IMG/VR virus record: IMGVR_UViG_3300033149_001502
Location: 1-24,065 of that record
Origin: a virus
Strand: one strand, 5' to 3'
Length of the DNA: 24,065 bases
The notes below the pieces were generated by a model. It ran no database searches. It saw only the letters and a program-made list of their open reading frames with translations, and was not told the origin of the DNA. Below, piece after piece: positions 1 through 4,906 of this stretch. The position numbers and the translations under genes were made by a program. Numbering within the stretch: the first letter of the stretch is position 1; each line of letters opens with the position of its first letter.

Positions 1-1123
1 GCTTGTACTCAATCGGAACCTCTATCACATCCTCCTCGTCAATAGCTTCCTCCTTCGACGAAATTATCCTTGACTGCTTATACTCATTTCCAACCTCTAC
101 AAGAAACTTCTCCCCACTAAACCTATCATCCGGCAGGGCCTCCCACTGTGATAGCTTCATGACGAAGATGGTCTTGTCTGTCTTGGCCTCCTCTATCTTT
201 CTATCAGTAAAATCTCCCTCGTAATTCGTCGATGAAACCAGAAGCAGCTTCCCGGGAACCTTCCCCTTCTGCATGAACCTGGACTTCATCCTACGTATCA
301 ACGTCGAGTACAGTTTTTCCGCTTGGTCATATTCCTCTTCCCCGGTATACATCGTGTAGGCACTATCCCTCACCCTAGCCATAAAATTCATCTCGTCTAT
401 TATTCCACCAAACACGTTCATGCCCAGGGCACCAGTATCACTCCCACCAATAGGTATAATATAAATGTTTTTTGGAAATCGCAGCTCCGACTTTATCTGT
501 GGGTCGAACGGGAAGTGCTTCTGGAAATATGGACTTTGCTTCAGCCTCTCTGAAAACTGCTCAAATACAACCTTCTTGGCTAGAGTCTTGGTAATCGACT
601 GCTGAATAAAAAAGATAGAAGACCCAGGAGCTAGGTCATATTCCAGCTGAGGATTGTGATAACAACTCAGTCTGTACAGCATGTAAGCAAGGGCCATATC
701 TGCCATGTAGTTCTTGCCCACCCCAATAGCTCCCGCGAGCACAGCCTCTACATACTGTTCCTTACTAAACAACTCCCACAATGCGTCCCGAATCCTTGGC
801 CTCAGATACCCCCTCTGTCCCATAAACTCTGTGCTCTCAACAAACTCTATAACATCAACTATTCTGTCTACACACAGCCCCCGTTGTTGAGTCAGAAAAC
901 TTACATCCTTGGTCTCCACCGCTCTTTGAAAATTAGTCAAGAACCCCTTGAGATCCACAAGCCTGAAGACGCTCTCTCCTTCGACCTCAAGCCTGGGACA
1001 CGACTTCAGTAGAAGTTCAAAAAGAGTGGACTCCTTCGATGTAAAGCCGGTGCGTTTTGCCACTTCCCACACCAGCTCTATTGCATCAGCTTCCCTTATC
1101 ACCCTATCAGGAGTATCCATCAT
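1..1123 (-). CDS. terL: Terminase large subunit (partial, runs off left edge)
   Basis: This is the ATP-driven DNA packaging motor, which cuts and pumps phage DNA into the prohead. I translated 374 residues with no stop before base 1, so the C-terminal end, with most or all of the nuclease domain, is outside the window. A Walker A-like loop GAIGVGKN lies at about residues 131-138. A Walker B-like FGGIIDE lies at about 238-244, and a coupling-type motif LLLVSSTN at about 293-300. The P-loop ends in Asn where Ser or Thr is usual. The first ~120 residues are a helical extension before the ATPase core. The start is one of two adjacent ATGs (1121-1123 or 1118-1120), directly after the TGA of the upstream gene, and the ribosome site is weak, so translation is probably coupled. 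The family call is confident; the exact start is not. Confidence 0.8.
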   Translation of the reverse strand, partial: MMDTPDRVIREADAIELVWEVAKRTGFTSKESTLFELLLKSCPRLEVEGESVFRLVDLKGFLTNFQRAVETKDVSFLTQQRGLCVDRIVDVIEFVESTEFMGQRGYLRPRIRDALWELFSKEQYVEAVLAGAIGVGKNYMADMALAYMLYRLSCYHNPQLEYDLAPGSSIFFIQQSITKTLAKKVVFEQFSERLKQSPYFQKHFPFDPQIKSELRFPKNIYIIPIGGSDTGALGMNVFGGIIDEMNFMARVRDSAYTMYTGEEEYDQAEKLYSTLIRRMKSRFMQKGKVPGKLLLVSSTNYEGDFTDRKIEEAKTDKTIFVMKLSQWEALPDDRFSGEKFLVEVGNEYKQSRIISSKEEAIDEEDVIEVPIEYK

Positions 1124-1903
1124 TCATCGCTCTTCTTTTTTTGCAACTTCATTCTTGGGCCTATACGTCCCTTCTGAATCAGGCACCAGCGTCAGTGCCT
1201 TGCTCTCTGCAAGCTCCAAGAACTTGTGCATGCCATCTATGAACCGGTGAGGGCTATTCTCTAGTGCATTCTGCACAATCCCCTCAAACTTGTGCTTGAT
1301 ATTCAGGTTAAACTCACTGGGCTTTGCATCCAACACCCCCAGCTCTATCTGGTACTTCAAATACGTGTCTAGCAGCTCCCCTAATGTCTTCACTGTCTTA
1401 TCTGTGAACTTGAATGGAATGGCCTTCTTCTCCCGCTCAACCAACGTTTCAAGCCTTTCTGCCTGTACCTGGATAGCCCACGCTAGCTTCTCCAGGCCAT
1501 CAACCTTCTTTTTCAGCTTCTCAGTACGCTTAGTTATCGACTCTGCCTCTTCTCTGTCCCGCTTTCCCCTAGCAGCTATCTTTGTCAGTTCAATATCACC
1601 AAGAGCCTCCCTTCTAAACTTCAGCATGGCCTTGTTCAGCACTTTCAGACTGCTGCCCCTCTTTAACCCCCAATCTTCCTGGCATATCCTACACACATAG
1701 TTAGCAGACTGCCCCCTCTTCAATCGGTAGTAAACCTCAAGCAACTGCTGGTCATCCAACAGCATCATCCAAGACCCTCTCTTCCCGGGAGGCCTGACTA
1801 TCTCTCTAAGCCTCCTTACCAGGCTCTTCGGAGCAAGCTGCATCTCCTCTTCGAGAGGAACCTCTCCTCGTTTCCCTCTATTATCAGGCTTATTCTGCAT
1901 CAT
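1124..1903 (-). CDS. Probable terminase small subunit-like protein
   Basis: A 259-residue charged protein directly upstream of the large terminase, ending where that gene begins. The N-terminal third (about residues 45-100) has a helix-turn-helix-like pattern with CRIC and the stretch LLEVYYRLKRG, as in DNA-recognising small terminase subunits. Residues about 105-165 are Lys/Glu-rich and heptad-like, consistent with a coiled coil for oligomerisation. The C-terminal part is helical with no motif I recognise. It overlaps the ParB-like gene by 14 nt. Two adjacent ATGs are possible: the second (1898-1900) sits about 6 nt after a GAGG ribosome site and may be the true start. The role is inferred from position and HTH/coiled-coil architecture, not from a diagnostic motif. 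Confidence 0.5.
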   Translation of the reverse strand: MMQNKPDNRGKRGEVPLEEEMQLAPKSLVRRLREIVRPPGKRGSWMMLLDDQQLLEVYYRLKRGQSANYVCRICQEDWGLKRGSSLKVLNKAMLKFRREALGDIELTKIAARGKRDREEAESITKRTEKLKKKVDGLEKLAWAIQVQAERLETLVEREKKAIPFKFTDKTVKTLGELLDTYLKYQIELGVLDAKPSEFNLNIKHKFEGIVQNALENSPHRFIDGMHKFLELAESKALTLVPDSEGTYRPKNEVAKKEER

Positions 1904-2639
1904 TCACCTCTACCACATCAGTCATCGTCCCCTGAGAGACGTCTACTTCCTCAAGAAGATCACTATACTTTTCTATAAACTTACCAACCGGCAAGATCGT
2001 CAGCATGTGAGACAGTACAGAGTCAAACTTGTACCCGTAAGCCATGCACTCTCTCACCTTATCCTTAATCTTCTTGTACTCCCTTGGAGGCATCCTTACC
2101 CAAATATGCTCCTTGCCGCCAAAATCTAGGATCATGAAGTTGGCAGGAAGTGTGTCGCCATACTTTGTGAACAACCTGTTCAGTACTAGACTCAGATCAT
2201 CAACCGTCTTTATCTCCTCCCGCGCCTTGTCAAACTCCTCTTTCATCTCCTCGCTTGGAAGAGACTCTCTGGCAGAGTCAAGCATCGCCTCGAACTCGTC
2301 CTCATCAGCAAAACCAAGCTCGTGGGCCAGCTCGTCATACGTGTACTCTCCAGACTGCATCAAGTCTTCTACTAACTCATTAAACTTCTTGTAGTTGAGT
2401 TTGCCCCTTATTTTGTTGAACCTCACAGTCTGGAACTTCTGCTTAGTCTCGTCCAGTATCTCTGGATCTGCAACTACACATTTAACAAGTGCAGCATCTG
2501 ACAAACGCTGCTGCTCGAACCTATGCTCTCCGTCAATAATTCTGAACTTTCCGTTGGGTAATGGAACAACAAGAATTGGGTCCAGGAACCCAACATCATC
2601 TATATTCTCCGCCAAAAGATCAAACTCCTCTGGGCTCAT
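1890..2639 (-). CDS. ParB/Srx-fold protein, N-terminally interrupted
   Basis: A ParB-like N-terminal domain protein. ParB-fold proteins bind DNA or nucleotides, and phage copies often sit next to terminase genes. The frame from the ATG at 2637-2639 holds the conserved core: SPEEFDLLAENI, then GFLDPILVVPLP, then IIDGEHR at about residues 36-42. The GEHR box is the nucleotide-binding signature. The rest is helical and acidic. The ATG has no good ribosome site and lies inside the domain. The first ParB strand (VELPIELIEPNPWNP) is encoded just upstream in the same frame, separated by a TAG at 2649-2651, and that upstream part has its own strong ribosome site. So this entry is the downstream part of a split gene, and its expression is uncertain. 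Confidence 0.7.
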   Translation of the reverse strand: MSPEEFDLLAENIDDVGFLDPILVVPLPNGKFRIIDGEHRFEQQRLSDAALVKCVVADPEILDETKQKFQTVRFNKIRGKLNYKKFNELVEDLMQSGEYTYDELAHELGFADEDEFEAMLDSARESLPSEEMKEEFDKAREEIKTVDDLSLVLNRLFTKYGDTLPANFMILDFGGKEHIWVRMPPREYKKIKDKVRECMAYGYKFDSVLSHMLTILPVGKFIEKYSDLLEEVDVSQGTMTDVVEVNDAE

Positions 2640-2819
2640 CTCATTCAGCTACGGGTTCCAGGGATTAGGCTCAATCAGCTCTATGGGCAACTCTACTACT
2701 GAGCCATGCTCAACCTGGAACGCGCTGCTATCACCTCCCCTCATGTCAACTTTTTCCTCCTGAAGGCCGCTGCTACCGCCTCCGGAGCCACTCCGAACCG
2801 TCTTCCTATCTCTGTCCAT
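2640..2819 (-). pseudogene. 5' part of the ParB-like gene, ended by in-frame TAG
   Basis: Reading from the ATG at 2817-2819 gives a 56-residue peptide. It begins MDRDRKTVRSGSGGGSSG and ends VELPIELIEPNPWNP before a TAG at 2649-2651. The ribosome site GGAGG is 6 nt before this ATG, which overlaps the end of the upstream epimerase gene by 14 nt, as is typical in this window. The frame continues after the TAG (LNEMSPEEFD...) straight into the ParB core with no shift. The Ser/Gly-rich leader followed by the ELIEPNPWNP strand is the normal start of a phage ParB-domain protein. The fragment is either the product of a nonsense mutation (CAG to TAG is one base), a readthrough site, or a sequence error. 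TAG ends other genes here, so general recoding is not supported. Confidence 0.7.
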
Positions 2820-3882
2820 GTGCTACCTCCAATCTCTTCTCAACATTGCATCTTTCCTCATACCATCCCCCAGACCAGAACCCGTGGGTTAACAATGCTA
2901 TCTTCTTTCCCACATCCTTTCCATACGGATGCTTCCACACTCTTCTATGCTTTGCCTTCAGCATCTCCTCAAAAACACCTTTCTCTCCCACAGGCCTTAT
3001 TAACACATTAGCCCCAAGCTTTAACGTCTCTGGCCTTTCAGTGTTATCTCTAATAGTAAAACAAGGAACTCCAAGGATACACGCTTCCTCCTGCAGACCC
3101 CCACTATCAGTAACTACAAAAGGAGCATGGCTTATCATATCCCACATCCTTATTGGAGAGACTGGGTCCACTATCTCCACTACATCCAACACCCACTTGT
3201 CCAGGCCCTTTGCCGCATCCCTCACTCCAGGGTGCATAGGGTATACTGCCCTAACCCCCCTATGTCTCAAGAAAGATGCGATGCCTCTCACTACAGAACA
3301 GAACCTGTCAACATCGTCCACCAGCTCTCTCCTGTGAAGCGTTATAACCACCCCATCATCATCTATACCATTGAGCCTTGTCGGAGGCCTCACCACATCC
3401 ACAATCGTATTCCCAACTGCATGCTTTAGTCCCATACAATGCTCTCTATTGCAATTATCCACATGATACACCAACGGGCAGAAAAGTATATCTGCTGCCT
3501 GATCCACCATCTTTCTGTTTCTTTCTTCTCTCATAAAAAAATCAAATGATCTCAGACCCGCTTCCACATGAGCCAATGGCTTCTTGTTATGGATTGCTGC
3601 TACAGCTCCAAGGACCGTCGAGGTCGTGTCCCCGTGGACCATAATAAGATCGGCAGTTTGGATGGCCGGAAACATCCCTGACAGGACATCAAAACCACTC
3701 ATCACCACAAGGTCACTCTCACAGTAGCCAAGGAAATCAAACATCATCCTTCCCAACTCATCGCTGAAGTGCTGCCCCGTGAACAGTACAACAACTTCCA
3801 CACCAACTCTCTTGAGACCATCTACTACCGAATACATCTTTATGATTTCAGGCCTTGTTCCAAGAACTACTGCGACCTTCAC
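2806..3882 (-). CDS. wecB: UDP-N-acetylglucosamine 2-epimerase (non-hydrolysing)
   Basis: Interconverts UDP-GlcNAc and UDP-ManNAc, a step in making surface polysaccharides. At 358 residues it is close to the usual ~370. Family motifs are in order: GTRPEIIK (about 8-15), TGQH (35-38), HGDT (83-86), HVEAGLRS (105-112), EERNR (119-123), LHRRE in the middle, and VTDSGGLQEEA plus TERPE near the C-terminus. These cover the UDP-binding and catalytic positions, so the enzyme looks intact. The start is GTG (3880-3882), with AGGAGG about 9 nt upstream, and it follows the TAG of the NAD-dependent epimerase by 1 nt. It is the last sugar gene before the ParB-like gene. The gene symbol is by family similarity. 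Confidence 0.92.
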   Translation of the reverse strand: MKVAVVLGTRPEIIKMYSVVDGLKRVGVEVVVLFTGQHFSDELGRMMFDFLGYCESDLVVMSGFDVLSGMFPAIQTADLIMVHGDTTSTVLGAVAAIHNKKPLAHVEAGLRSFDFFMREERNRKMVDQAADILFCPLVYHVDNCNREHCMGLKHAVGNTIVDVVRPPTRLNGIDDDGVVITLHRRELVDDVDRFCSVVRGIASFLRHRGVRAVYPMHPGVRDAAKGLDKWVLDVVEIVDPVSPIRMWDMISHAPFVVTDSGGLQEEACILGVPCFTIRDNTERPETLKLGANVLIRPVGEKGVFEEMLKAKHRRVWKHPYGKDVGKKIALLTHGFWSGGWYEERCNVEKRLEVAHGQR

Positions 3883-3883
3883 A

Positions 3884-4906
3884 CTAATTCTCCTCCTTTA
3901 TTCGCTTATCAAAACCATCCTTAACCAGGTGCATTCTCTCTCTGTAATACTCCACAGTCCTCTTGATTCCGTCATCCAGTGACACAACTGGCTCCCACCC
4001 CAGTCTCTTCAGATCCTCTGAGACCCGTATCCGATGAACCTTTACATCTATACTCCTTCGATCCACATGAACAATACCAGTACCAGGAACTGCTCTTGCA
4101 ACCGCATCTGCTATATCATTGACCGATACCATGTAGGGTGGGACGATACTCACCGTCTTTTCATTGAAGACATCATAACGATCTACTATCAAAGCAACCG
4201 CTCGGGCCAGATCATCGCAGTAGAAGTGCTGCCTTACCTGTCTCCCGTCTCCATGAACCTCTAGCGGGATTCTTAGTAAGGCATTACGGATAAAATACCA
4301 CGTTACTACGTTCCTCTTCATCCTTGGCCCATACTGAGTCCCAAACCTAAATACAGTAAACCCAACGCCGAACTGGTAGAAGTTATCATGGCAAATCATC
4401 TCCATGGCCAGCTTGTTGTCTACATACTGGTGATAGCAGTCTGCCAAGTCTATCCCTGTAGACCCATTACCAACCATTCCATCACTGCCCACCTTCAGCA
4501 TTCCTGATACCAAACTTGATGAAGCAATGGAGATTCTCCTTACATCAGACCGTGCTCCTAGATCATGAACTACATCGTACAATGTAGCCAAGCCCACGGC
4601 TCCTGGCATCCACGCACTAACCTGGCCAAGGGCAGAAGAGACCGTGTGGCTGACTCCGGCTAGGTGGACAATCTCCTGAATCTTGAAGTACTCCACTACG
4701 TGCCTAACCATATCAAAGTCTGTCACATCTCCTTTGATAACCTCCAACTTCGTCCCACTACCAACTGATGCAACATCCTTCCTGATCTCTCCCTCATTAC
4801 TAGTATCAACATCATACAGCACCACAACATCAAAGAGTCTTCTGGCCATCTCTCTCGCAATGTGGCCCCCCAAGAAGCCTGCTCCGCCTGTAATCAAAAC
4901 TCTCAT
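3884..4906 (-). CDS. NAD-dependent sugar epimerase/dehydratase (extended SDR)
   Basis: A nucleotide-sugar-modifying enzyme of the extended short-chain dehydrogenase family, similar to UDP-glucose 4-epimerases. The NAD(P)-binding GGAGFLGG loop is at residues 7-14, the Ser-containing SIASSS strand at about 126-131, and the catalytic pair YVDNK (Tyr161, Lys165) in the expected place. A substrate-side FRFGTQYGPR segment follows at about 185-195. At 340 residues the length is normal. Ribosome site AGGAGG lies about 9 nt before the ATG. It sits between the SGNH hydrolase and the UDP-GlcNAc 2-epimerase, so a UDP-sugar is the likely substrate. The reaction (epimerase, dehydratase or reductase) cannot be fixed from sequence alone. 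Confidence 0.88.
   Translation of the reverse strand: MRVLITGGAGFLGGHIAREMARRLFDVVVLYDVDTSNEGEIRKDVASVGSGTKLEVIKGDVTDFDMVRHVVEYFKIQEIVHLAGVSHTVSSALGQVSAWMPGAVGLATLYDVVHDLGARSDVRRISIASSSLVSGMLKVGSDGMVGNGSTGIDLADCYHQYVDNKLAMEMICHDNFYQFGVGFTVFRFGTQYGPRMKRNVVTWYFIRNALLRIPLEVHGDGRQVRQHFYCDDLARAVALIVDRYDVFNEKTVSIVPPYMVSVNDIADAVARAVPGTGIVHVDRRSIDVKVHRIRVSEDLKRLGWEPVVSLDDGIKRTVEYYRERMHLVKDGFDKRIKEEN

Follow-up and report, generated by a model that had tools for sequence, protein, structure and literature searches.

In phage T4, an HNH endonuclease (mobA) has split gene 39, and gene 60 carries a 50-nt insert that starts with a stop codon, is bypassed by ribosomes and has been proposed to guard against cleavage (PMC5009743, PMC3014915). 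Gene 60 belongs to the very small number of cases in which a homing endonuclease goes along with an insert, within the targeted gene, that contains a stop codon. If an independent second pair existed at a different gene, inserts of this type would seem to arise repeatedly from endonuclease mobility, as a by-product or as a defence. In Aeromonas phage Aeh1, the HNH endonuclease mobE splits nrdA, the pieces of which stay functional (PMC2988022). In-frame stop codons are also a feature of phages with genetic code 15 (crAss-like, phAss-1), which read TAG as glutamine and have it in frame within conserved genes (PMC9523058, PMC10607447).

The window analysed here comprises 24,065 nucleotides and is a whole uncultivated IMG/VR contig (IMGVR_UViG_3300033149_001502). 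It is largely syntenic with several other IMG/VR contigs (G001, G003, G004, G005 and G006), to which it shows identities of 56-62% for ParB and 63-65% for TerL, the closest ParB being that of G004 (IMGVR_UViG_3300017613_001362). A first scan of IMG/VR with exact peptides gave no match, and no nucleotide match to the window was found among cultured phages. The ParB-like protein of the window belongs to phage family phrog_26387. In Delepquintavirus and its relatives, such genes lie immediately ahead of the terminase genes, first the one at the small-terminase position and then TerL. This order was found in Stenotrophomonas phages DLP_5 and Summit, in phages of Rhizobium and Rhodobacter, and among uncultivated relatives. 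The genes flanking parB in the window are:

2-1123, minus strand: terminase large subunit (TerL), cut by the contig end.
1124-1903, minus strand: gene between parB and terL in the small-terminase position, placed there by synteny only and without a family match.
2806-3882, minus strand: UDP-GlcNAc 2-epimerase, the final codons of which (about 2830-2806) overlap an HNH-element remnant.

The ParB-like gene itself is interrupted by an in-frame stop codon and consists of the following parts:

1890-2819, minus strand: ParB-like reading frame of 309 codons with one internal TAG, defined by translation and by homology to phrog_26387.
2826-2830, minus strand: GGAGG ribosome site of the ATG at 2819.
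2652-2819, minus strand: upstream ORF of 56 codons (MDRDRK...IEPNPWNP, then the stop), homologous to the tail of an HNH element in the related locus L057.
2646-2651, minus strand: six-base insertion TAG CTG between NPWNP and NEM, with the TAG at 2651-2649.
2637-2639, minus strand: ATG encoding the conserved Met of the NP-xx-M site, 9 nt after the TAG, a possible reinitiation start.
1890-2639, minus strand: downstream ORF of 249 amino acids, fully open, with the predicted ParB nucleotide-binding helix and loop, GEHR (GxxR) and the C-terminal part.

Translation of 2819-1890 yielded just one stop, at 2651-2649, as claimed in the initial annotation, together with all of the peptides quoted there (VELPIELIEPNPWNP, LNEMSPEEFD and GEHR). 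That the TAG breaks a single ParB N-terminal domain, also proposed there, agrees with the Pfam ParB_N match (PF02195; cut-off 26.3 bits), which spans the stop and scores 36.2 bits when read across it; the downstream ORF by itself narrowly misses the cut-off with 24.1 bits, and the sequence ahead of the TAG by itself has no Pfam match. A Foldseek search with a model of moderate quality (pLDDT 71, pTM 0.42) returned Noc (7nfu) with a probability of 1.00 and an E-value of 6e-8, and the fold comparison matched ParB, Noc and KorB. By ParB_N score and modelled fold, the window protein is a ParB-CTPase fold protein. It resembles phage proteins of this fold in its ParB_N domain, GxxR motif and predicted fold match to ParB, Noc and KorB, and differs from them in that its frame is interrupted before the nucleotide-binding helix and that its C-terminal part is specific to the terminase-linked family. 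The downstream body is predicted to retain the nucleotide-contacting helix, the loop and the GxxR motif described for the ParB-CTPase fold, so a truncated or two-piece ParB might work.

Comparison with related loci indicated that the stop codon lies within an insertion. All other ParB loci inspected (more than 50, some of them copies of one phage) encode NP, two residues and Met or an equivalent, and the order in the window is NP, TAG, Leu, two residues and Met. Two extra codons at the NP-xx-M site were present in the window and L057 only and absent from the more than 50 related loci, in which NPWNP|NEM is uninterrupted and which represent the empty sites for a conserved-site insertion. L057 reads AAT CCT T GAG CTT AAT GAA ATG at this site, which corresponds to a two-codon insertion and one additional T. 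As this T lies beside the insertion, the zero frame of L057 stops at a TGA right after NPWNP; the HNH ORF and TerL of L057 are also frame-shifted, and the extra T in ParB, and with it the TGA stop, may thus be an indel error. In an AU test of the window and L057 as sister lineages, p was 0.28. The initial annotation had considered a single base change from CAG to TAG, which is unsupported because the relatives have no codon at the TAG position: the TAG is the first codon of an insertion missing in more than 50 relatives and not a conserved residue. A glutamine origin was likewise rejected, as the only codon found there is the GAG of L057, which follows the frame-shifting T.

The insertion also bears on whether the TAG at 2651-2649 arose through faulty sequencing or assembly, or through a chimera. 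A single contig is known, and the example of L057 makes clear that frameshifts can occur in contigs from this group; the six-base insertion, however, is common to the window and L057, at the same place and in related sequence, and the conserved genes of the window are without any other lesion. We consider an error improbable on these grounds.

The source of the insertion is suggested by the organization of L057, in which the start of ParB is doubled. A short first copy ending in ...IEPNPWNF and a stop is followed by an HNH endonuclease ORF (4439-4696; Pfam HNH_3), a helix-turn-helix tail and a second ParB N-terminus, which runs into the insertion and then the ParB body. The element spans about 560 bp and is mostly ORF; a group I intron was searched for with Rfam covariance models, without a match in the window or L057. 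The upstream ORF of the window shares 53% amino acid identity with the second N-terminus of L057, i.e. the element tail, and does not resemble the native N-termini of ParB in other relatives. Since its first 56 codons are homologous to this tail, the N-terminus of the window ParB and the adjoining TAG CTG appear to be element-derived. A further trace of the element was found in another frame:

2741-2830, minus strand: helix-turn-helix C-terminal remnant of the HNH element (GGSTWTEIGRRFGVAPEAVAAAFRRKKLT and a stop), identified by comparison with L057.

The remnant corresponds to the C-terminal 29 codons of the helix-turn-helix and is 59% identical to GGMSWVELGKKYEVTPEAVAQAFKRRKLT of L057; an intact HNH domain is absent from the window, which holds this remnant only. 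In addition, the epimerase of the window extends about 16 codons beyond the end of its G001 homologue (2854) and into the remnant, an overlap consistent with deletion of the HNH part. We infer that an ancestor of the window carried the element and that the HNH part was later deleted, and the amber codon in ParB very probably sits in the scar of the HNH element.

The locus invites comparison with the endonuclease-split genes of T4 and Aeh1, and it resembles both T4 gene 60 and Aeh1 nrdA and fits the full definition of neither. As in T4 genes 39 and 60, an HNH element splits a conserved phage gene, and a short stop-bearing insert, unique among relatives, lies near the start of the downstream gene. 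In contrast to T4, the insert of the window is 6 nt long, in frame and without a hairpin, the endonuclease is deleted, the target is ParB-like and bypass is hypothetical. The insertion of an HNH endonuclease into a conserved gene is likewise shared with Aeh1 nrdA/mobE, whereas the element here brings along a copy of the target N-terminus, and what remains is no more than a stop and two codons.

Following the T4 precedent, ribosomes might leave at the Pro codon before the stop, skip the insert (6 nt in the window, 7 nt in L057) and resume at AAT, which would restore NPWNP-NEM exactly. In T4, an HNH endonuclease likewise lies beside a stop-bearing insert proposed to be protective against cleavage (PMC5009743, PMC3014915). 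In both phages, the triplet that precedes AAT is identical to the Pro codon at bases 1 and 3 (CCG/CTG and CCT/CTT), and in L057 the intein of TerL is followed by an 8-nt insert that also contains a stop and lies between two ATT triplets. The matched codons, stop and hairpin of gene 60-type bypass were nevertheless found only in part, as the landing codon is mismatched at the middle base and no RNA structure beyond that of shuffled sequences was detected around the stop (z -0.17). Furthermore, bypass is not needed for an insert that is a multiple of three as in the window, and the inserts of L057 may be sequencing errors. Bypass is accordingly the explanation to which we assign the least weight, as very unlikely. 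Two repeats were noted in this region, neither accompanied by folding above shuffles: an inverted repeat of 16 nt (81%; window 2647-2662 / 2714-2729), one arm of which covers the TAG, and a direct repeat of 25 nt within the upstream ORF (2714-2738 and 2759-2783). TAGCTG is not a recurrent motif in its own right, with 14 copies against 12.5 expected.

Alternatively, the gene could be expressed in pieces, with translation stopping at the TAG and reinitiating at the ATG 9 nt on, to give a 249-aa body and a 56-aa peptide that carries the first strand; the two would work together or the body would work alone, cf. Aeh1 NrdA. The distance from stop to ATG is short, the body keeps the predicted nucleotide-binding helix, loop and GxxR motif, and phage genes split by endonuclease insertion can remain functional (PMC2988022). 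L057 stops at the same point and has the same ATG, and a TAG within TerL of G004 (described below) is also followed by an ATG five codons later. However, the ribosome sites point elsewhere. The ATG at 2819 has a strong site (-10.6 kcal/mol), and an in-frame ATG at 2744, also upstream of the TAG, has a GGAGG site too (-10.3). As the initial annotation had stated, the ATG at 2639 is without such a site (+0.4 kcal/mol), and about 90% of background ATGs score better. The same annotation had named a stop at the same place in relatives, combined with a downstream start bearing a ribosome site, as evidence against its reading of one gene split by a TAG; the TGA stop and the ATG were indeed found in L057, but the site of that ATG is poor (-1.9). 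The Met is moreover conserved in intact relatives, so a start function is not needed to explain its presence, and the truncated ParB falls under the Pfam cut-off. Expression in pieces is therefore regarded as unlikely.

To place the ParB stop in context, we used 407 sense proteins as queries in a scan for internal stops that covered 105 loci (partly redundant) with about 706 kb of conserved coding sequence. Only sense queries with multiple support were kept, which removed the antisense artefacts that made up most stops in six-frame comparisons. Three multiply supported internal stops remained, and all three are TAG: the one in ParB, which is the only such stop in the conserved coding sequence of the window when compared with relatives, and two in G004. 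The first of these interrupts TerL (FMNQKG*VRPK, asterisk denoting the stop; L176 1909-1911) at a position where relatives mostly encode Tyr, and the second interrupts a helicase (LRVDD*RTVG; L175 5774-5776). No ATG, GTG or TTG occurs in the 36 codons after the helicase TAG, which disfavours reinitiation there, and the three TAGs share no common downstream context. By our own estimate, the chance that three of three stops would be TAG is about 0.04 if the nonsense types were equally likely, which makes the pattern suggestive only, as the statistics alone are weak. Since tailed phages cannot do without TerL, the TAG in the G004 gene, if real, must be tolerated. Together with the helicase TAG, this suggests that partial readthrough of TAG may occur where these phages grow, and the readthrough option raised in the initial annotation gains independent support from the closest relative. 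The TAG-only pattern across these coding sequences favours partial amber suppression over decay.

Decay would require only that one base change made the scar codon a stop, recently, with ParB lost or dispensable in the phage or in part of its population. It has the merit of invoking a single lesion, and, if the codon of L057 is the older one, just one change leads from GAG to TAG. ParB may be dispensable, and mobile elements are degrading here, with HNH lost in the window and frameshifted in L057. Set against this, the remaining frame and the ribosome site are intact, every other relative inspected has kept an intact ParB gene ahead of its terminase genes, and the TAGs inside TerL and the helicase of G004 are left unexplained. 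We regard decay as a minority explanation, still to be taken seriously.

Full recoding of TAG, which the initial annotation judged improbable, is difficult to reconcile with its use as the terminator of 7 of the 25 minus-strand genes in the window. The locus shares in-frame TAGs inside conserved genes with the code 15 phages (PMC9523058, PMC10607447). It differs from them in having one or two TAGs per contig (one in frame in the window, where code 15 is marked by many), in the common use of TAG as a stop and in that no suppressor tRNA was found. A tRNA with a CUA anticodon was detected neither in the window nor in any relative contig, these being mostly fragments, and a search for pyrrolysine synthetase gave only sub-threshold matches in two Desulfovibrio MAGs holding distant relatives. 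G001 encodes tRNA-Tyr (GTA; L172 9949-10035) and tRNA-Gly (CCC; L168 8193-8267), neither of which is a suppressor.

From these observations, we propose that an HNH homing-endonuclease element, as still present in L057, invaded the ParB-like gene at the NPWNP|NEM codons. A replacement for the ParB N-terminus would have come from the tail of the element, with two additional codons linking it to the body. In the lineage of the window, the endonuclease would then have been deleted, leaving the helix-turn-helix remnant, the replacement N-terminus and a two-codon scar, the first codon of which is now TAG. Full-length ParB (NPWNP-X-L-NEM) would most likely be made by partial amber suppression, in the host or by a phage tRNA encoded off the contig. 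As TAG ends 7 of 25 genes, suppression would lengthen normal proteins too, which is a point against this proposal. The combination of scar and amber suppression is our preferred explanation of the window ParB, and we hold it tentatively, at somewhat less than even confidence.

If true, the TAGs in TerL, the helicase and ParB of related phages that otherwise terminate genes with TAG would imply that phage genomes are shaped by partial suppression as well as by full recoding, and that genes with an in-frame TAG are wrongly split by gene callers. More speculatively, the HNH element could be a cassette that delivers a replacement N-terminus together with a stop-bearing insert blocking recutting, in hosts with standing amber suppression where TAG is still a terminator; this extension seems doubtful to us.

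Several further insertions were observed in this group. The 8-nt insertion in TerL of L057 (7980-8000) starts with TGA right after the intein (GCTATT TGACGATT GGTATTGG), is flanked by ATT on both sides and could be an error or a bypass-like insert. Contig G006 (L164, L165; IMGVR_UViG_3300005613_004609) carries four intein-like insertions, in TerL, an AAA+ ATPase, RecA and primase, in addition to an HNH element in ParB. Finally, L052 (4687-7650) has a 987-aa TerL ORF, in which an intein-like insertion occupies the region that also holds the insertion of L057 TerL.
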